A stretch of DNA of 64,000 nucleotides from Streptomyces sp. NBC_01268 (GTDB lineage: Bacteria > Actinomycetota > Actinomycetes > Streptomycetales > Streptomycetaceae), in assembly GCF_036240795.1 (NCBI RefSeq), contig NZ_CP108454.1, forward strand, positions 5,392,001 to 5,456,000. The letters run 5' to 3'. A program made the position numbers and the translations under genes. This document shows, in pieces, positions 5,414-61,105 of this stretch (the first letter of the stretch is position 1; every line of letters starts with the position of its first letter). The notes beneath the pieces are model-generated. The model saw only the letters and a program-made list of their open reading frames with translations, did not search any database and was not told the DNA's origin.

Positions 5414-6370
5414 ATGGCGACCGTGAGTATCGGCCCCGTGACTGTGACACGAACAGCACGTCTCTCCGGCGCCGCCCTGTGCGGCGCGCTCGCCCTCGTC
5501 ATCGCCGTCTGGCTGCTGAGCGACCTGGCCGCCTTCCGGTCGCCCGCCGAACTCCTCTGGTACTGGGCGGGGGACCGGGCCTTCCTGCTCCGCCGCAGGG
5601 CCGCCACCTCGCTCGTCGACCCGCTGCTCCTCGTCGCCTACGTCGCCACCGCGCACGCCGCCCTGCGCTCCTCGCTCGCCGGGCCGGCCCTCGCCGTCAC
5701 GGGGCTCACCACCCTCGCGCTGCGGCTGCCCGGCCTGTGGGCCGCCGGCGTCGACGCCCTGGTCACCAGCCTGCTCGCGCTCGCCCTCGCCGCCGGGCTC
5801 GTCGTCACCGCCGCCGCCGGCCGGCGCGAGGCCCACGAGGGGGAGCCCGGCGGCCCGGACCGCCCGCGCACCGGACCCGCCGTCGCCGCCGGGACGCTCT
5901 GCGGGCTCGCCGCCCTGGTCTGGACGGCCTGGGAGGTGCACTGGGCGAGTGCGCTGCCGGCCGAGTTCACCGTCGACCGGTTCACCGGCGGGCGCTCCCT
6001 GCTGCTGCCCGCGCTCGCCGTCCCGCCCGGCTGGCTCGACGTCGTGCTGACCCTGCTGCTGGCCGCGGCCGCGGGCAGCGCCCTCACCCGGGCCCGGCAC
6101 GCCCGGCCGGTCGGCCTGCTCGCCGGACTGCTGCTCACCGGCTGGGGGACCGGGGGCGTGGCCACCGCGCTGCGCGCCGGCTGGTTCGGCGACTTCCCGC
6201 AGCTGGAGACCGACGCCCTGCTCTCCGTCCTCACCTCGGTCTTCGCCGTCCTCGCCGGGACCGCCGTCATGGTGCTGCTGGCGCGGCCGGGGGAGCGGCG
6301 CAGCTCCCCGTACCGGCCCGCCGCCGCCCTGCCCCCGGCGCCGCCCGCGCAGCCGCCGCCCGGCTGGTGA
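5414..6370 (+). CDS. Polytopic membrane protein of unknown function
   Basis: About 318 residues with roughly seven hydrophobic helices, the first at LSGAALCGALALVIAVWLLS, and a Pro/Ala-rich cytoplasmic-looking tail. I do not recognise the family. The start is uncertain: ATG 5390 lies within a palindrome, ATG 5414 is my choice, and GTG 5423 or 5438 remain possible; none has a clear ribosome site. The gene ends directly against the S9 peptidase gene on the other strand (stop codons at 6368-6370 and 6371-6373, no spacer), so the two are convergent. Confidence 0.75.
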   Translation: MATVSIGPVTVTRTARLSGAALCGALALVIAVWLLSDLAAFRSPAELLWYWAGDRAFLLRRRAATSLVDPLLLVAYVATAHAALRSSLAGPALAVTGLTTLALRLPGLWAAGVDALVTSLLALALAAGLVVTAAAGRREAHEGEPGGPDRPRTGPAVAAGTLCGLAALVWTAWEVHWASALPAEFTVDRFTGGRSLLLPALAVPPGWLDVVLTLLLAAAAGSALTRARHARPVGLLAGLLLTGWGTGGVATALRAGWFGDFPQLETDALLSVLTSVFAVLAGTAVMVLLARPGERRSSPYRPAAALPPAPPAQPPPGW

Positions 6371-8536
6371 TCAGCCCAGGCCCAGCGCCCGCCTGAGGAA
6401 GTCCACCTGGAGCAGCAGCAGGTTCTCCGCCACCTGCTCCTGCGGCGTCATGTGCGTGACGCCCGACAGCGGCAGCACCTCGTGCGGGCGGCCGGCGGCC
6501 AGGAGCGCGGAGGAGAGCCGCAGGGTGTGCGCCACCACCACGTTGTCGTCGGCGAGGCCGTGGACGATCAGCATCGGCCGGGCCGGCTCCACCGCCCCGC
6601 TCAGCCCCTCGTCGGTCACCAGCGAGTTCGCCGCGTAGACGGCCGGCTCCTCGTCCGGGTGGCCCAGATACCGCTCGGTGTAGTGGGTGTCGTAGAGCCG
6701 CCAGTCCGTGACCGGGGCGCCCACCACGGCCGCGTGGAAGACGTCGGGTCGGCGCAGCGCCGCCAGGGCGGCCAGGTATCCGCCGTACGACCAGCCGCGG
6801 ACGGCCACCCGCCCGAGGTCGAGCGGGAAGCGGCCGGCGAGCCCGTGGAGCGCCTCGATCTGGTCGTCGAGGGTGCCGGCGAAGTCCCGGCTGACCGACT
6901 TCTCCCAGGCGGGGGAGCGGCCCGGCATGCCGCGCCCGTCGGCGACGATCACGGCGAAGCCCTGCTCGGCGAACCACCGGGAGGTCAGATACGGGTTGTG
7001 CGCGGCGACCACCCGCTGCCCGTGCGGCCCCCCGTACGGGTCCAGGAGCACCGGCAGCGGACCGTCGCCCTCCGACCAGCCCGAGGGCAGCAGCACCGCG
7101 CACGGGATCCGCCGCGCGCCCGCCTCGACCAGCCGCACCCCGGCCGCGAGCGGGGGAGTCTGCGCGTACGAGGCGACCTCGGCGACCGTCTTCCCGTCCC
7201 GCAGCACCCGCGCCACGCTCCCCGGAACGTCCGGCCGGGCCGAGGACAGCACCGTCACCGCACCGGAACGCACCGCTCCGTGCACCCCGGCGCCCTCCGA
7301 GACCCGCTCGGCGCCCCCGCTGCCCCCGATCCCCACCCGGTACACATGGATCTCACCGATCTCGGAAGCCTCCGCGGCCTCACCCGCCGACGCCGAGATC
7401 AGGACATCTTCCGCGCCCACGTCCAGCACCGCGCGGACATGGAGCGTCCCGTCCGTCCGCGCCCGCTCCCCGACCGCGAGCACCCGCGCCCCGCCCTCGT
7501 CGGCGATCCGCACCAGCCGCCCGTCCGGCGTCCGGGCCGGGACCCCCGTGAACAGCTCCAGCCACGCCGGATCCTCCTCCCGGCGCACCTCCCGCGTCGC
7601 CCCCGACTCCGGGTCGACCTCCAGATACGCCTGCGTGCGCTGGTCCCGGGCCTGGACGAGCAGCAGCGGCGCGCCGTCGCCCGACCAGTGCACCCGGGCC
7701 AGGTACGGGAACGCGGCCCGGTCCCACACCACCTCCGTCCGGGCCCCCGCGAGGTCCACAAGGAACAGCCCGACCTCCGCGTTGGGCGTGCCCGCCGCCG
7801 GGTAGGCCACCGCGTGCGGAGCCCGCTCCGGGTGCGCCGGATCGGCGATCCACCAGCGCCGCACCGGCCGTTCGTCCACCCGCGCCACCAGCAGCCGGTC
7901 CGAGGACGGCGCCCACCAGAAGCCCCGGCTGCGGCTCATCTCCTCCGAGGCCGCGAACTCCGCCAGGCCGTAGCTGACCCCCTCCGCCTCGGGCTCGACC
8001 AGCGCCCGGTCCCCGCCCGCCGCGGAGCCCGGGTCGGTGCCCGTGACCCGCAGCGCCCCGCCCGCCGCGTACGCCACGTACCGCCCGTCCGGCGAGGGCC
8101 GCGGGTCGACCACCGGACCCGGCACGGGCAGTTCGCCCGCCGTGCCCGCCCGCAGCTCCGCCACGAACAGACGTCCGGACAGCGCGAAGGCCGCCAACTC
8201 CACGGCCCCGTCCACGGCATAGCCCACGATCCCGCCCGAGCCCTCCCGGCTGCGCTCCCGGCGGGCCCGCTCCTCCGCGGACAACTCCTCCTCCGCGCCC
8301 GCGAGCAGCGCCCGCGGATCGGCCGCCAGGCGCTCGGCCGGGGCGCCGGCACCGCCGGCCCCTCCGAGGTCCAGCACCCACAGCCCGTGCGAGCGGTCCG
8401 TCCCCGAGGAGGACCGGACGAACACCACCCGCTCGCCGTCCGGGGACACGCTGAAGGCGCGCGGGGCGCCGAGCGTGAACCGCTGCGTCCGCGCGGACCG
8501 GCGGGGGAACGACAGGGAGTCTCGTGACGAAGTCAT
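6371..8536 (-). CDS. S9 family prolyl oligopeptidase (dipeptidyl-peptidase IV-like)
   Basis: This is a 721-residue serine peptidase with an N-terminal beta-propeller (DPPIV_N-like) and a C-terminal alpha/beta hydrolase domain. The triad can be placed by codon: Ser583 in GWSYGG, Asp663 in HGLADDNV and His695 in GVTHMT. The 80- and 32-residue spacings closely match those of DPP4 (Ser630/Asp708/His740). No signal peptide or membrane anchor is visible, so it is probably cytosolic and trims imported or proteolytic peptides, which fits the peptide importer nearby. The ATG at 8536 was chosen because TAGTTT lies 7 nt upstream (leaderless pattern); an upstream frame to 8599 is open but has no signal. 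Confidence 0.93.
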   Translation of the reverse strand: MTSSRDSLSFPRRSARTQRFTLGAPRAFSVSPDGERVVFVRSSSGTDRSHGLWVLDLGGAGGAGAPAERLAADPRALLAGAEEELSAEERARRERSREGSGGIVGYAVDGAVELAAFALSGRLFVAELRAGTAGELPVPGPVVDPRPSPDGRYVAYAAGGALRVTGTDPGSAAGGDRALVEPEAEGVSYGLAEFAASEEMSRSRGFWWAPSSDRLLVARVDERPVRRWWIADPAHPERAPHAVAYPAAGTPNAEVGLFLVDLAGARTEVVWDRAAFPYLARVHWSGDGAPLLLVQARDQRTQAYLEVDPESGATREVRREEDPAWLELFTGVPARTPDGRLVRIADEGGARVLAVGERARTDGTLHVRAVLDVGAEDVLISASAGEAAEASEIGEIHVYRVGIGGSGGAERVSEGAGVHGAVRSGAVTVLSSARPDVPGSVARVLRDGKTVAEVASYAQTPPLAAGVRLVEAGARRIPCAVLLPSGWSEGDGPLPVLLDPYGGPHGQRVVAAHNPYLTSRWFAEQGFAVIVADGRGMPGRSPAWEKSVSRDFAGTLDDQIEALHGLAGRFPLDLGRVAVRGWSYGGYLAALAALRRPDVFHAAVVGAPVTDWRLYDTHYTERYLGHPDEEPAVYAANSLVTDEGLSGAVEPARPMLIVHGLADDNVVVAHTLRLSSALLAAGRPHEVLPLSGVTHMTPQEQVAENLLLLQVDFLRRALGLG

Positions 8537-54815: not shown

Positions 54816-54844
54816 CCCCGTAGCGCCACGGAACGCTACCGGGG
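54816..54844 (+). terminator. Stem-loop after the second ABC operon
   Basis: CCCCGTAGCG pairs with CGCTAC-C-GGGG (54816-54825 with 54834-54844, one bulged C, 8-nt loop). It lies 18 nt after the stop, and no U tract follows. It could also serve as an operator for the next gene. Confidence 0.6.
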
Positions 54845-54988
54845 CGGGAAAGTTACGTGCATTCACCCCTTCCGGTGGCGCGACGGACAACCGTCCATCG
54901 CGCCACCGGCATATCCGCTTACGTTCTTCCCGCTGCGGGTCACCGGACCGAAAGGTGGCCGCCGACACGGGAGATCGGGGGTGTGCAC

Positions 54989-56770
54989 ATGCGGATCGGA
55001 CTGCTCACGGAAGGTGGCTATCCGTACGCCACGGGTGAGTCCGGGCTTTGGTGCGACCGGCTCGTACGCGGCCTCGCCCCGCACGAGTTCGACGTCTACG
55101 CCCTCAGCCAGGACGCCCGCCACGAGGCCGCCGGCCGGCTGCCCCTCCCGCCCAACGTCCGCGAGGTGCGCACCGCCTCGCTCTGGGCCCCCGACGACGA
55201 CGGGCGCGGCCACGGCCGCCGCGAACGCCGCCGCTTCGAGGCCGCCTTCCGCGAGCTCGCCGCCGGCATCTGCGCCGACCGGCCGGTCACTGCGGCCGGT
55301 GCCGAAGAGGCCGGGGCCGGTGCGGCCGCCGGGGGACCGCGGGCCGCCGCGACCGGCGAGAGACCCGGGACCCGACCCGTCGCGGGGGAACCCTGGGGCG
55401 AACGGGCCGCCCGGGAGCCGCGGGCGGCGGACGCCGCCGCGGACGCCCCCGAGCGATTCGCCGCCGGGCTCTACGGACTCGCCGAACTCGCCCGCTCCCA
55501 CGGCGGACTGCGCGCCGCGCTCCGGTCCGAGACCGCCGTGCGGGTCCTGGAGTCCGCGGGCCGGGCCCCCGGAGCGCGCCGCGGCCTCGCCGCCGCCACC
55601 GTCCCCGATCACCTCGCCTTCCTCGACCGGCTGGAGCGCGCCCTGCGCCCGCTCTCCCTCGACTGGTACGACGAGGAGGGCGCGGGCCTCGGCCGGGCGG
55701 ACCTCTGCCACGCCGCCTCGGCCGGGGCGGCGGCGCTCCCCGGCCTCCTGGCCAAACGCTTCTTCGGCACCCCGCTGCTCGTCACCGAGTACGGCGTCCA
55801 GCTGCGCGCCCACTACCTCGCCGCCGCCGACGCCCCGCTCGCCACCCCGGTCCGCGCCCTGCTCGCCGCCTTCCACGGGCGGCTCGCCGGCGAGGTCTAC
55901 CGCCAGGCCGCCCTCCTCACCCCCGGCAACGCCCACGCCCGCCGCTGGCAGGAGCGCTGCGGCGCCGACCGCGCCAAGCTGCGCACCGTCCACCCCGGCA
56001 TGGCCGCCGAACGCTTCGCCGAGGTCGGCGAGGACGAGGAGAGCGGCGACCCGGCGACCCTCTCCTGGATCGGCCGCGTCGAGCCCGCCAAGGACCTCAT
56101 CGCCCTGTTGCACGCCTTCGCCGACGTCCGCCGCCGCCAGCCCGACGCCCGGCTGCGGATCATCGCCGCGCCGCTGCGCGAACCCGGCGCCGCCGCGTAC
56201 CTCGCGCACTGCCGCAACCTCGCCGAACAGCTCTTCCCCGACGAGGCCGCTGGCCGGCACGCCATCGGCGAGAACCCGGTCTCCTTCGAGGAGCTGGGCG
56301 GCCCCGAGGCCCCGACCCTGGAGGAGGCCTACGCCTCCAGTGCCGTCGTCGTCCTGTCCAGCGTCGTCGAGGGCTTCCCCGTGAGCCTCGTCGAGGCGAT
56401 GTTCTGCGCCCGGGCCACCGTCTCCACCGACGTCGGCGCGGTCGTCGAGGTCATCGGCGGCACCGGACTCGTCGTCCCCCCGCGCAACCCCAAGGCGCTC
56501 GCCGACGCCTGCCTCGCACTGCTGCGCGACCCCGAGCGCCGGCACCGCCTGGGCGCCGCCGCCCGCGCCCGCGCCCTGGAGCTCTTCACCGTCGAACAGA
56601 ACCTCGCGGCGTTCCGCGGCATCTACCTCGAACTCCTCTCCCGCGCACCGGTGTGCCGCCGCACCGCCCGGGCCGTGCCCTTCGCACACCCGGCCGAGGC
56701 GTACGTGCCGGGCAGCTGGGCGGACCAGCCCGTCACCGCCGCGGCCGGTACGGGAGACCCCGATGCCTGA
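54989..56770 (+). CDS. GT4 glycosyltransferase with N-terminal DUF3492 (PelF-like)
   Basis: 593 residues. The N terminus IGLLTEGGYPYATGESGLWC is the DUF3492 motif of PelF-type glycosyltransferases. The C-terminal half is a GT-B/GT4 donor domain: SWIGRVEPAKDLIALLHAF, EELGGPEAPTLEEAY, and the EGFPVSLVE (Ex7E) motif, followed by VVPPRNPKALADAC. A variable Ala/Arg/Gly insert lies near residues 95-160. In Pel systems PelF adds N-acetylhexosamine units from a UDP-sugar; that role here is inferred. ATG 54989 is likely; GTG 54983 is an alternative. Confidence 0.88.
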   Translation: MRIGLLTEGGYPYATGESGLWCDRLVRGLAPHEFDVYALSQDARHEAAGRLPLPPNVREVRTASLWAPDDDGRGHGRRERRRFEAAFRELAAGICADRPVTAAGAEEAGAGAAAGGPRAAATGERPGTRPVAGEPWGERAAREPRAADAAADAPERFAAGLYGLAELARSHGGLRAALRSETAVRVLESAGRAPGARRGLAAATVPDHLAFLDRLERALRPLSLDWYDEEGAGLGRADLCHAASAGAAALPGLLAKRFFGTPLLVTEYGVQLRAHYLAAADAPLATPVRALLAAFHGRLAGEVYRQAALLTPGNAHARRWQERCGADRAKLRTVHPGMAAERFAEVGEDEESGDPATLSWIGRVEPAKDLIALLHAFADVRRRQPDARLRIIAAPLREPGAAAYLAHCRNLAEQLFPDEAAGRHAIGENPVSFEELGGPEAPTLEEAYASSAVVVLSSVVEGFPVSLVEAMFCARATVSTDVGAVVEVIGGTGLVVPPRNPKALADACLALLRDPERRHRLGAAARARALELFTVEQNLAAFRGIYLELLSRAPVCRRTARAVPFAHPAEAYVPGSWADQPVTAAAGTGDPDA

Positions 56771-56783
56771 AGGAGGCACCCCC

Positions 56784-58028
56784 ATGCGCGGCCCCGCCGC
56801 ACCCACCAGCCCGGGTCCCTGGGATCCCCGCTCCGAGGCCCTGCTCCGGCTCGCCGCCCCGGCCGCGCTCGCCCCGCCGGTCCCGGCCGGCCCCGCCGAA
56901 GCGATTCAGCAGCCCGCCCCCGCACTCGGCCCGCGCGCCCCCCGGCGCGCCACCGCCGACCCGGTCAAAGCCCTGATGCACCGCCACCGCGAGCTGTGCG
57001 AACGGGCCGTCGACCCGCTGGAGATCGCCGCCGGACTCGAAGCCCACGGCGTCACCGACCGCACCGCCGCGCGCTTCCGGCACCGCGACGTCTTCTCGCT
57101 CGCCGAGGAGCTGTACGCCCGGGTGCCCCGCGGCGACTCCGCGCCCGCCCGCCCCGCCCCCGAGGCGCCCGCCCCCGGCGGAACGGCGGCCTGGGCGCTC
57201 GCCGCCTGCGCCCCCGGCACCGTCGCCGTGCTCACCACCGCGGGCCTCGCCCTCACCCAGGGGGCGCTGCGCGGCGCGGTCGGCGCGCTCGGGGCCCTCG
57301 GCCTCGCCGCCGCCCTCCTCGTCGCCGTACGCCGCGGCCCCCTGCACGCCGACGGGCGCACCGCGCCCGCCGCCCGGCTCTGGACCCTCTGGCTGCTCGC
57401 CTACGCGGTGGCCGGCGACGGCCTCCTCGACCAGCTCCTGACCGGCGGCCCCGACGGCGCCGCCTGGAGCCTCGTCACCCCCGGCGGCCCCGCCGCCCCG
57501 GCCGACGGCGCCTGGCTCCTCGACACCGGCCCCCTGCTCGCCCTCGCCCTGGCCGTCGCCCCCGCCGCCTGGTGTGCCCGGCTCTTCGCCGTCCGCGCCC
57601 GCCGCCGGCTGGCCGCCAGCCGCGGCCTGGCCGACTTCGCGGCGGGCGTCCGACCCCTGCTGCTCTCCACCGTCGCGCTCCCCCTCGCGCTGCTCGCCGG
57701 GCTCCTCGCCCTCACCGGCTTCAGCCCCGGCGCGCTCGCCCTCGGCGCCCTGCTGCTGCTCGCCCGGCTCCTCACCGTGCACGGGCCGCCGGAGACCGCA
57801 GCCCACGGCCTCGCCGCCGCCTGCGCCGCCGAGGCCCTCTCCCTCGCCCTCGTCCTCGCCGCCCGGCTCCCGGGCTGTGCCTTCCTCGACTCCCCGGTCC
57901 GCGCCGCCGTCGACACCTGGGGACCCGCCGCCGTGCCCGCCCTCGCGTGCGGCGCCGCGGCCCTCGCCCTGCTGGCCCACGCCACCACCGCACTCTCCCG
58001 GGCCTCGGCGCACGCCACCGCCCGCTGA
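56784..58028 (+). CDS. Polytopic membrane protein of the glycosyltransferase cluster
   Basis: 414 residues. A cytoplasmic N-terminal region has a helical conserved-looking stretch (HRHRELCERAVDPLEIAAGL, then FRHRDVFSLAEELYARVP) at about residues 60-115. About eight to ten hydrophobic helices follow to the end. I do not recognise the family; it takes the place of the PelG or PelE membrane partner in Pel-like loci but is not an obvious homologue. ATG 56784 has GGAGG 7 nt upstream; ATG 56763 overlaps the previous stop. Confidence 0.82.
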   Translation: MRGPAAPTSPGPWDPRSEALLRLAAPAALAPPVPAGPAEAIQQPAPALGPRAPRRATADPVKALMHRHRELCERAVDPLEIAAGLEAHGVTDRTAARFRHRDVFSLAEELYARVPRGDSAPARPAPEAPAPGGTAAWALAACAPGTVAVLTTAGLALTQGALRGAVGALGALGLAAALLVAVRRGPLHADGRTAPAARLWTLWLLAYAVAGDGLLDQLLTGGPDGAAWSLVTPGGPAAPADGAWLLDTGPLLALALAVAPAAWCARLFAVRARRRLAASRGLADFAAGVRPLLLSTVALPLALLAGLLALTGFSPGALALGALLLLARLLTVHGPPETAAHGLAAACAAEALSLALVLAARLPGCAFLDSPVRAAVDTWGPAAVPALACGAAALALLAHATTALSRASAHATAR

Positions 58029-58105
58029 TCCCCGGCGCACCCGCGGGGCCGACGCCGCGGGCGCTCCCCCCTCCACCTGGACCATCCCAAGGAGACCCAA
58101 CAGAC

Positions 58106-58159
58106 ATGACGCGCCAACCCCACGCCACGGCCGGTCGGCACGAAGGGGCCGCACGATGA
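58106..58159 (+). CDS. Possible 17-residue coupling ORF before the epimerase gene
   Basis: ATG 58106 has GGAG 9 nt upstream. The peptide TRQPHATAGRHEGAAR ends in a TGA that overlaps the epimerase ATG (ATGA at 58156-58159). It may only serve to deliver ribosomes to the next start. Confidence 0.4.
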   Translation: MTRQPHATAGRHEGAAR

Positions 58160-59115
58160 GGGTGCTGCTGCTCGGAGCCAACGGATTCATCGGCCGCTTC
58201 GTCGCCGACCGGTTGCTCGCCGACCCGGCGGTGCACCTCACCGCCCTCGGTCGAGGCGACGACGCCGACGTACGGTTCGACCTCGCGACCGGCAGCCCCG
58301 GTGCCCTGACCCGGTTCCTCGACGCCGTCCACCCCGGAGTCGTCGTCAACTGCGCGGGCGCCACCCGCGGTGGAGCCCGCGAGCTGACCCGGCACAACAC
58401 CGTCGCCGTCGCCACCGTCTGCGAGGCCCTGCGCCGCAGCGGCTGCGGCGCCCGCCTGGTCCAGGTCGGCTGCGCCTCCGAGTACGGGCCCAGCCAGCCC
58501 GGCTCGTCCACCGCCGAGGACGCCGTGCCCCGCCCCGGCGGCCCGTACGGCGTGTCCAAGCTGGCCGCGACCGAACTCGTCCTGGGCTCCGGCCTGGACG
58601 CCGTCGTCCTGCGGGTCTTCTCACCCGTCGGCCCCGGCACCCCGGCCGGCTCCCCGCTCGGCCGGCTCGCCGAGGCCATGCGCCGCGCCATGCAGGCCGG
58701 CGACGGTGAGCTCAAGCTCAGCGGCCTGGGCGTGCAGCGCGACTTCGTGGACGTACGGGACGTCGCCCGCGCCGTCCACGCCGCCTCGCTCTCCGCCGCG
58801 CAGGGCGTCGTCAACATCGGCACCGGCCGCGCGGTCCGGCTCCGGGACGCCGCCGCCGTCCTCGCCCGCGTCGCCGGATTCGCCGGCACGCTCCACGAGT
58901 TGGACGGGCCGCCGCCGCGCCCGGTCATCGGCGCCCCGCGCACCGAGACCATCGCCGAGCAGCTGGCCGCCGCCCCCTTCCCGTACCCCGACGGCTGCGG
59001 GCCCTGGCAGCAGGCCGACGTGCGCACCGCCCGCGACCGGCTCGGCTGGCGGCCGCGGATCAACCTGGAGGAGTCGCTGGCGGACATCTGGATGGAGGCG
59101 GCATGCCGCATCTAG
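58156..59115 (+). CDS. NAD-dependent epimerase/dehydratase (extended SDR)
   Basis: 319 residues. The N-terminal Rossmann motif is LLLGANGFIGRFVADRLL (GxxGxxG). Later comes NCAGATRGG, the active-site Tyr-x3-Lys as YGVSKLAA near residue 138 preceded by a Ser in CASEYGPS, then VRDVARAV and a C-terminal helix-rich domain. In hexosamine polymer loci such enzymes make UDP-GalNAc from UDP-GlcNAc or similar; this reaction is inferred only from neighbours. The end overlaps the next gene by 13 nt. Confidence 0.87.
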   Translation: MRVLLLGANGFIGRFVADRLLADPAVHLTALGRGDDADVRFDLATGSPGALTRFLDAVHPGVVVNCAGATRGGARELTRHNTVAVATVCEALRRSGCGARLVQVGCASEYGPSQPGSSTAEDAVPRPGGPYGVSKLAATELVLGSGLDAVVLRVFSPVGPGTPAGSPLGRLAEAMRRAMQAGDGELKLSGLGVQRDFVDVRDVARAVHAASLSAAQGVVNIGTGRAVRLRDAAAVLARVAGFAGTLHELDGPPPRPVIGAPRTETIAEQLAAAPFPYPDGCGPWQQADVRTARDRLGWRPRINLEESLADIWMEAACRI

Positions 59116-59855
59116 CCGCCACCGGCACGGCCCTGGCGATGGGGGTGGGCGTGCCCGGCTACGCCCACCCGCTGCTCGCCCCCGTCGAGTGGGCCGAGCT
59201 CACCCGCCCCGGCACCCCCGTCCACTGGGCCGTCCTGAACGTCGCGGAGGGGCCCGGCGCCCGGCCCGACCCGCACTGCCTGGAGGCCGCCGGGAAGCTG
59301 CGCAACGCGGGCGTCCGGGTGCTCGGCCACATCGACCTGCGGCACGGCTCCCGCCCCTTCGGCGAGGTCGTCTCGGACGCCCAGCGCTTCCTGGACTGGT
59401 ACAAGGCCGACGGCTTCTACCTGGACCGCGCCCCCGCCGACCGGGCCGACCTGCCGGCGGTGCGACGGATCTCGGCGACGCTGGAGGCGCTGCTCGACGG
59501 GGAGCGGGGGAACCGGGGCGCCCATCTCGTCCTGGGCCACGGCACCCACCCGTACCCCGGCTACGCGGAGGCGGCCGACCAGCTCGTCACCTTCTCCGGG
59601 GCCTGGGCGGACTACCGCTGGTCGCAGGTGGCGGAGTGGACGGCCGACTACCCGGCGGGGAAGTTCGTCCACCTGGTCCACGGGGTGCCCCGGACCCATC
59701 TGGAGGAGGCCCTGCGGATCGCCCGCTGGCAGGGCGCGGCGACGGTCTTCTTCACCGACCGCCGGGGCCGGCCGGGACAAACCGACCAATTCCACACGCT
59801 GCCCGGCTACTGGGACGAAATCGTCTCGCGTATCGGACGGGGTGTCTCGGAATGA
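59103..59855 (+). CDS. Spherulation-specific family 4 (spherulin-4, GH135-like) protein
   Basis: 250 residues. It fits the Spherulin4 family: GVGVPGYAHPLLAPVEWAEL at the N terminus, HWAVLNVAEGPG, VLGHIDLRHGSRPFGEV, WYKADGFYLDRAPAD and HLVLGHGTHPYPGYAE, then TVFFTDRRGRPGQTDQFHTL. The fungal relative Sph3 (GH135) is a glycosidase for galactosaminogalactan, and PelA carries a related hydrolase domain. Asp in FYLDR is a candidate catalytic residue. No signal peptide is visible, which is unusual for an enzyme acting on an exported polymer. Confidence 0.87.
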   Translation: MPHLAATGTALAMGVGVPGYAHPLLAPVEWAELTRPGTPVHWAVLNVAEGPGARPDPHCLEAAGKLRNAGVRVLGHIDLRHGSRPFGEVVSDAQRFLDWYKADGFYLDRAPADRADLPAVRRISATLEALLDGERGNRGAHLVLGHGTHPYPGYAEAADQLVTFSGAWADYRWSQVAEWTADYPAGKFVHLVHGVPRTHLEEALRIARWQGAATVFFTDRRGRPGQTDQFHTLPGYWDEIVSRIGRGVSE

Positions 59856-59926: not shown

Positions 59927-61105
59927 GTGTCGCTGCCACCCCTGGTCGAGCCGGCTGCCGAGCTCACCGTTGACGAGGTCCGCAGGTACTCCCGCCACCT
60001 GATCATCCCGGACGTCGGGATGGACGGGCAGAAGCGGCTCAAGAACGCGAAGGTGCTCTGTGTGGGCGCGGGCGGCCTCGGCTCGCCCGCTCTCATGTAC
60101 CTGGCCGCGGCCGGTGTCGGCACGCTCGGCATCGTGGAGTTCGACGAGGTCGACGAGTCGAACCTGCAGCGCCAGATCATCCACAGCCAGGCGGACATCG
60201 GCCGTTCCAAGGCGGCGTCCGCGAGGGACTCGGTCCTCGGCATCAACCCGTACGTGAACGTGATCCTCCACGAAGAGCGGCTCGAGGCCGACAACGTGAT
60301 GGACATCTTCAGCCAGTACGACCTGATCGTCGACGGCACCGACAACTTCGCGACCCGGTACCTGGTCAACGACGCCTGCGTGCTGCTCAACAAGCCGTAC
60401 GTCTGGGGCTCGATCTACCGCTTCGACGGCCAGGCCTCGGTCTTCTGGTCCGAGTACGGCCCCTGCTACCGCTGCCTCTACCCGGAGCCCCCGCCGCCGG
60501 GCATGGTCCCCTCCTGCGCCGAGGGCGGCGTGCTGGGCGTGCTCTGCGCGTCCATCGGCTCCATCCAGGTCACCGAGGCCATCAAGGTCCTGGCCGGCGT
60601 GGGCGACCCGCTGGTCGGCCGCCTGATGATCTACGACGCCCTGGAGATGCAGTACCGCCAGGTCAAGGTCCGCAAGGACCCCGGCTGCGCGGTCTGCGGC
60701 GAGAACCCGACCGTCACCGAGCTCATCGACTACGAGGCCTTCTGCGGCGTCGTGTCCGAGGAGGCCCAGGAGGCGGCGCTCGGCTCGACGATCACTCCCA
60801 AGCAGCTCAAGGAGTGGATCGACGACGGCGAGAACATCGACATCATCGACGTCCGCGAGCCGAACGAGTACGAGATCGTCTCGATCCCCGGCGCGCGCCT
60901 GATCCCGAAGAACGAGTTCCTGATGGGCACCGCCCTCCAGGACCTCCCGCAGGACAAGCGGATCGTCCTGCACTGCAAGACGGGTGTCCGCAGTGCGGAG
61001 GTCCTCGCCGTGCTCAAGGCCGCGGGCTTCGCGGACGCCGTGCACGTCGGCGGCGGCGTGATCGGCTGGGTCCACCAGATCGAGCCCGAGAAGCCGGTCT
61101 ACTAG
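59927..61105 (+). CDS. moeZ: Adenylyltransferase/sulfurtransferase MoeZ
   Basis: 392 residues. The N-terminal E1-like ThiF/MoeB domain has GAGGLGSPALMY near residues 46-57, NLQRQIIH and DGTDNFATRYL; the CxxC zinc pairs lie in CYRCLYPEP and CAVCGENP. The C-terminal rhodanese domain has active-site Cys350 in LHCKTGV. MoeZ adenylates and thiolates sulfur-carrier proteins (MoaD, ThiS, CysO-type) for molybdopterin, thiamine, cysteine and thiosugar synthesis. GTG 59927 follows a GATGAGG element. An AATAC/GTATT inverted repeat lies just upstream. Confidence 0.95.
   Translation: MSLPPLVEPAAELTVDEVRRYSRHLIIPDVGMDGQKRLKNAKVLCVGAGGLGSPALMYLAAAGVGTLGIVEFDEVDESNLQRQIIHSQADIGRSKAASARDSVLGINPYVNVILHEERLEADNVMDIFSQYDLIVDGTDNFATRYLVNDACVLLNKPYVWGSIYRFDGQASVFWSEYGPCYRCLYPEPPPPGMVPSCAEGGVLGVLCASIGSIQVTEAIKVLAGVGDPLVGRLMIYDALEMQYRQVKVRKDPGCAVCGENPTVTELIDYEAFCGVVSEEAQEAALGSTITPKQLKEWIDDGENIDIIDVREPNEYEIVSIPGARLIPKNEFLMGTALQDLPQDKRIVLHCKTGVRSAEVLAVLKAAGFADAVHVGGGVIGWVHQIEPEKPVY

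Follow-up and report, generated by a model that had tools for sequence, protein, structure and literature searches.

Does a four-gene block that is widespread in Streptomyces make and trim a polysaccharide of the Pel or galactosaminogalactan (GAG) kind, or has it acquired a different role? The block lies in a window of 64,000 nucleotides (the whole stretch of DNA that was analysed) from Streptomyces sp. NBC_01268, which covers positions 5392001–5456000 of a single-contig genome of 8,505,003 bases. It encodes a glycosyltransferase (GT), a polytopic membrane protein (MP), an extended short-chain dehydrogenase/reductase (SDR) and a Spherulin-4 protein with the GH135 fold. A preliminary description of this DNA drew an analogy to Pel and GAG loci and proposed that the block may make and trim an alpha-linked, (N-acetyl)galactosamine-like polymer or a related surface glycan. 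The kinship is upheld, as the GT, MP and Spherulin-4 have paralogues in a locus of the same genome that also carries Agd3-like and GH114 genes. The trimming is unsupported because the general acid/base Glu of the hydrolase is absent from every readable orthologue and the locus contains neither a deacetylase nor a GH114 gene. Instead, the block is a paralogue, present across nearly the whole genus, of a kind of locus that is already known; unexpectedly, its hydrolase is dead.

A Divergent Paralogue of Agd3-Type Loci

All four open reading frames are on the + strand and have a coding-like codon composition. The GT (54989..56770, alternative in-frame GTG start at 54857) overlaps the MP (56763..58028) by 8 bases, a gap of 127 bases separates the MP from the SDR (58156..59115, counted from the first ATG of the homologous part), and the SDR overlaps Spherulin-4 (59103..59855) by 13 bases, in keeping with the single direction and short gaps or overlaps described earlier. 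The family assignments also hold. The GT matches Pfam DUF3492 (95.9 bits, cut-off 23.3) and Glyco_trans_1_4, and narrowly passes the NCBIfam PelF model NF038011 (105 bits, cut-off 100). The SDR matches Pfam Epimerase (127 bits) and was further placed by its PDB relatives, while Spherulin-4 matches Pfam Spherulin4 (81.3 bits, cut-off 30.2) and aligns with the Sph3 structure 5c5g (E 8.8e-6). The MP, a putative exporter, matched no Pfam family, as had been noticed. Its N-terminal cytosolic helical domain, common to Agd3-type loci, is followed by about nine helices of transmembrane length in the model (seven transmembrane segments by hydropathy).

DUF3492 and Spherulin-4 genes each occur twice in the genome, arranged as two pairs. 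The second pair, at 2.39 Mb, belongs to a locus with the order Agd3-like, GT, MP, Spherulin-4, GH114. The window GT is 37% identical to its counterpart there over 547 aligned positions, Spherulin-4 is 43% identical over 181, and the MP is 41% identical over 100 in the N-terminal region; the GT of the second locus scores 178 bits against the PelF model. The GH114 protein matches 6oj1 (E 1.8e-57), a structure named Ega3 by Bamford et al. 2020 (PMC7229062). Against Agd3_CE, the Agd3-like protein reaches 24.1 bits, just under the cut-off of 27.6, and it had no PDB match by sequence at E ≤ 0.01, so its label rests also on context. According to Bamford et al., bacterial Agd3 operons all include a cytoplasmic GT and a multi-spanning membrane protein, the GH114 gene is highly consistent, and spherulin-4 occurs in some Actinobacteria (PMC7229062). 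By this account the second locus is the Pel/GAG-like machine proper, of a kind already described. The window block shares the GT and MP with these Agd3 (CE18) operons by homology, that of the MP residing in its N-terminal domain. In contrast to them, it has no Agd3-like or GH114 gene, its Spherulin-4 has no acid/base, an SDR is present, and a loop of the GT has changed.

A total of 42 loci were read and sorted into five types: 21 of type A (including the window locus), seven of type B, 10 of type C (including the second locus), two of type D and two of type E. Agd3-like deacetylase and GH114 genes are both absent from type A loci, that of the window included. In a tree of the GTs, obtained by a quick search, each type occupies one side of a branch (SH-aLRT 79 for type B, 99–100 for the others), and type A, on a stem of 1.41 with SH-aLRT 100, lies beside types B and C; one type A end branch (L020) is long, and the program warns of long branches meeting at types D and E. 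On these relationships the window locus is a divergent paralogue of the Agd3-type locus in its GT, MP and Spherulin-4. The simplest reading of the tree, which is no proof, is that the deacetylase and GH114 genes of a common ancestor would have been lost.

The gene order GT-MP-SDR-(Spherulin-4)-moeB was found in 21/21 type A loci, a set chosen partly for missing Spherulin-4 genes. A second set of 80 named Streptomyces loci was fetched via the SDR; these are near the window (SDR 87% identical or more), non-independent, and may share species with the first set. The SDR and moeB are present in all 80 and the full GT-MP-SDR-Spherulin-4-moeB order in 73, confirming that the arrangement is far beyond chance and that the four genes are a co-conserved unit. 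Four of the seven incomplete loci (L071, L081, L092, L107) are short records without the GT side, and two (L133, L136) are without Spherulin-4. Among the 119 genomes of an order-level sample (104 of the same genus and 15 of other families), 105 matched a type A Spherulin-4 profile at E ≤ 0.001, and matches of type A strength (E ≤ 5e-89) occur in 95 of the 104. DUF3492 is present in 103/104 same-genus genomes and in 0/15 of the others; the sole same-genus genome without a match has a type A Spherulin-4. In a phylum-level sample of 198 genomes, Spherulin4 was found in seven, DUF3492 in 14 and PelG in five, two of them over the cut-off.

A Spherulin-4 Protein without Its General Acid/Base

The general acid/base of Sph3 is Glu222, and the nucleophile is printed as Asp196 (PMC12054363). 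The alignment of the window protein with 5c5g agrees with Asp166, Glu167 and Glu222 at an offset of 50. We take the nucleophile to be Asp166, differing from the printed residue. Similar to GH135 (Sph3), the window copy has the Spherulin4 domain and the nucleophile (Asp108); in contrast to it, the Glu is replaced by Ser165 and no signal anchor is visible. Among the type A proteins the Glu was found in 0/15 readable sequences (S, R, A, Q or C instead), one remnant (L022) being unreadable, and the nucleophile in nine, having been lost in the remaining six. Both residues are kept in 18/18 Spherulin-4 proteins from types B, C and E. The named loci agree: Spherulin-4 was found in 78/80, and the Glu in 0 of the 74 parsed (34 S, 20 R, 6 A, 6 Q, 4 T, 4 C), while the Asp position, parsed in 75, holds 61 D, 8 A and 6 G, a loss in 14/75. 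No signal peptide is visible by eye, as had been remarked, and no predictor was run. Neither the type A paralogue nor its lost Glu was described in what was returned by a full-text literature search, whose reach did not extend to supplements or most subscription papers.

Selection on the block was estimated as the ratio of nonsynonymous to synonymous substitution rates (dN/dS, NG86) in five full pairs. The values are 0.06–0.10 for the SDR, 0.10–0.15 for moeB, 0.20–0.33 for Spherulin-4, 0.23–0.31 for the GT and 0.34–0.50 for the MP, and the GT alone gave 0.14 in a sixth pair. The range for Spherulin-4 indicates that the protein is constrained despite the lost Glu.

The fungal GAG cluster (uge3, sph3, gtb3, ega3, agd3) has a synthase GT, a nucleotide-sugar SDR and an Sph3-fold protein in common with the block; in contrast, the block has no agd3 or ega3 counterpart, its SDR is like the GDP-4-keto-6-deoxyhexose reductases (RMD), and its Spherulin-4 is catalytically incomplete and without a visible membrane anchor. 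In the Gram-positive Pel locus pelDEADAFG, too, a polytopic membrane protein neighbours a GT of the PelF family (PMC7112168). Unlike that locus, the window genome has no PelG (PF16933; no match in the whole genome at E ≤ 0.001), which accords with the preliminary description, where no PelG-like exporter was recognisable, and a Pfam scan of the four proteins found no PelA-type deacetylase domain. PelD and PelE Pfam domains are likewise absent from the four proteins; they were not searched for genome-wide.

Proposed Function

We put about an even chance on type A being a neofunctionalised glycan synthase of GAG/Pel-like ancestry with a non-catalytic, probably cytoplasmic Spherulin-4. The SDR would prepare a nucleotide-sugar donor, from which the GT would polymerise a sugar by means of a remodelled donor/acceptor pocket, and the MP would pass the chain through the membrane. 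Spherulin-4 would act at the cytoplasmic face as a chain-binding or assembly subunit rather than a trimmer. Reproductive hyphae would thereby produce a surface glycan that is not deacetylated. A more specific version is tentative and somewhat less probable than this: a cytoplasmic GH135-fold pseudo-glycosidase, in a developmental machine found across the genus, may bind the nascent chain or couple the GT, SDR and MP, the polymer being neither GAG nor Pel.

The motifs retained by the GT are consistent with synthase function. The EX7E motif and the Arg and Lys of GRVxPxK are important in GT4 enzymes. EX7E is kept in 21/21 type A GTs and in 74 of the 75 GTs found in the named loci, and the Arg and Lys are both kept in 15/21 and 75/75, respectively; the window copy has all of these. 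Timing of expression is suggested by S. coelicolor, where SCO5174 (the transferase), SCO5175 and SCO5177 have a log2 MII/MI of 2.2–3.8, that is, induction in the second (reproductive) mycelium (PMC3610822). Mutants of SCO5174 have lower actinorhodin production (PMC6585502), and SCO5178 is named moeB (PMC4340878).

Several observations weigh against the proposed synthase. SCO5174–SCO5177 were matched to the type A block by gene order and annotation rather than by sequence, and the presumed SDR, SCO5176, was found neither in the full-text literature search nor in the expression paper. The literature search returned no biochemical data on the four proteins. At the second Gly of the GGVS loop, 21/21 non-A GTs have G and 20/21 type A GTs have E or D (E17 in the window; 57 E, 7 D and 1 Q among 65 parsed named loci), a change that could harm donor binding. 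The Arg or Lys of GRVxPxK is replaced or unalignable in 6/21 (L014, L018, L019, L020, L023 and L026; one is an alignment gap), which may mean that certain lineages have lost activity. In the SDR the catalytic Ser/Thr-Tyr-Lys set is incomplete, with Cys at the Ser position, and this could mean that it is not a normal enzyme; together with the acidic loop, it could mean that both the GT and the SDR are altered or inactive. At E ≤ 1e-60, 55 of the 104 same-genus genomes have no LegB-like 4,6-dehydratase as a partner for the SDR. Homology of the MP to that of the second locus was detected by BLAST in the N-terminal region and not in the membrane part, and the exporter fold of the MP is putative. 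Spherulin-4 is missing from L023–L027, where the GT, MP and SDR are kept, is a remnant in L022 and is also missing from 2/80 named loci; it is dispensable in some lineages. Finally, one full-length named locus (L140) has the SDR, Spherulin-4 and moeB with no detectable GT or MP.

If the proposed synthase is real, a conserved pseudo-hydrolase in Pel/GAG-derived machinery would bear on the roles that the puzzling hydrolases of such systems have beyond cutting. A synthase-dependent polysaccharide system would have a dead hydrolase as a subunit. A biofilm polysaccharide machine would also have split into paralogues with and without a deacetylase in a genus with fungus-like hyphae. Most sampled Streptomyces carry the block, and its S. 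coelicolor matches, assigned from gene order, show strong induction in reproductive mycelium (PMC3610822).

Alternative Explanations

The alternative that fares best, itself rather unlikely, is that the SDR is a 4-keto-6-deoxyhexose reductase and that a 6-deoxy sugar (possibly a 6-deoxy-N-acetylhexosamine) takes the place of N-acetylgalactosamine in the glycan; it could be combined with the synthase proposed above. The nearest solved relatives of the SDR by sequence are GDP-4-keto-6-deoxyhexose reductases (2pk3, 6x3b), with which it shares the extended SDR fold, YxxxK and an RxF..xGPG stretch. In type B loci an SDR 40–46% identical to that of type A stands beside a LegB-like 4,6-dehydratase and a nucleotidyltransferase, genes that type A loci do not hold, and more than half of the same-genus genomes are without a LegB-like partner, as noted above. 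The active site also speaks against a reductase. The residue at the fourth position ahead of the Tyr in EYG is Cys in 21/21 type A and 80/80 named SDRs, where 9/9 type B and D proteins (and RMD) have Ser. The catalytic role of this Ser position is presumed from GalE and RMD. YxxxK is intact in 21/21 type A SDRs and GxxGxxG is kept.

The first proposal, in which an active system like Pel or GAG would build an alpha-linked polymer of the N-acetylgalactosamine type and trim it with Spherulin-4, is improbable. The match to the PelF model (105 against 100 bits), the Spherulin-4 fold, the nucleophile kept in the window copy and the related locus with Agd3-like and GH114 genes in the same genome are all consistent with it. 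Against it stand the Glu missing from all readable type A proteins, the Asp lost in 6/15 and 14/75, the absence of deacetylase and GH114 genes from the locus and of PelG from the genome, and an SDR nearest to RMD by sequence.

Equally improbable is a type A set that is non-catalytic as a whole and serves as a membrane-bound sensor or scaffold, sensing nucleotide sugars or NAD(H) during development. All three enzyme families have replacements at sites conserved in other locus types, and other Gram-positives are reported to have PelD epimerase domains whose active-site residues are altered (PMC7112168). The retention of EX7E in 21/21 type A GTs, of the Arg and Lys in 75/75 named GTs, and of GxxGxxG and YxxxK in the SDR argues against such a role. 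Slow decay of the locus, as what is left of the GAG-like operon, is very improbable, for although Spherulin-4 is missing in five and a remnant in one of 21 loci (chosen to include losses) and GT motifs have eroded in a few lineages, dN/dS is well below 1 in all four genes, the SDR value is below that of moeB in each of the five full pairs, and the locus is near-universal in the genus sample.

Flanking Genes and Other Locus Types

An Opp-type ABC transporter lies immediately upstream of the block. Immediately downstream, and outside the system, is the moeB-like gene (ThiF + rhodanese; 59927..61105, + strand), which is directly 3' of the block in 21/21 type A loci. The type A GT is preceded by a conserved 5' element (54825..54959, + strand) in which the arms of an inverted repeat, about 15 bp in size, enclose an AACC loop. 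Its core 12-mer is present in 19/21 type A loci and somewhere in 70/80 named loci; L020 has no core 12-mer, and its GRVxPxK is altered or unalignable as well. With up to three mismatches allowed, a 35-nt pattern taken from the element has a single match in the 8.5 Mb genome. The element had no Rfam match at gathering score, and its covariation was not clear of shuffles. The element could be an operator, an attenuator or an RNA element.

The second locus sits between cobS and a gene that we take to be pepA-like. A large protein with repeated CAKCQGLAF/HDH-like units is encoded at 5689–7617 (+ strand) of that locus record, with no family over the cut-off. Type C loci, the second locus included, have the order Agd3-like, GT, MP, Spherulin-4 (9/10) and GH114 (5/10).

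The type B order is Agd3-like, GT, MP, LegB-like 4,6-dehydratase, nucleotidyltransferase, SDR, Spherulin-4 and GH114 (3/7). The dehydratase is present in 7/7 by coordinates, with an internal stop codon in L037 and a LegB score of 455 bits (cut-off 475) in L043, and the nucleotidyltransferase is present in all four loci listed for it (L037, L039, L041, L043). The type B loci (L037–L043) thus set a dehydratase, an RMD-like SDR and, in four of seven listed, a nucleotidyltransferase beside an Agd3-like gene; from this gene content, their product may be a polymer of deacetylated 6-deoxy-hexosamine and not GAG. A LegB-like gene (E ≤ 1e-60) occurs in 49/104 same-genus genomes, of which 27 hold only a copy 54–59% identical to that of type B. 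In the window genome (L059; G000:C1:7259156–7260079, − strand) a LegB-like dehydratase of 436 bits (cut-off 475), 56% identical to the type B enzyme, lies away from both DUF3492 loci.

Type E (L046, L047) combines a PelF-type GT, PelG (464 bits in L046), an Agd3-like gene (26–27%) and a Spherulin-4 whose N-terminal part includes a hydrophobic stretch, and by these genes is apparently a Pel/GAG hybrid locus in another actinobacterial family. A GAF/GGDEF-type, PelD-like protein is encoded upstream of the type E genes in L046.

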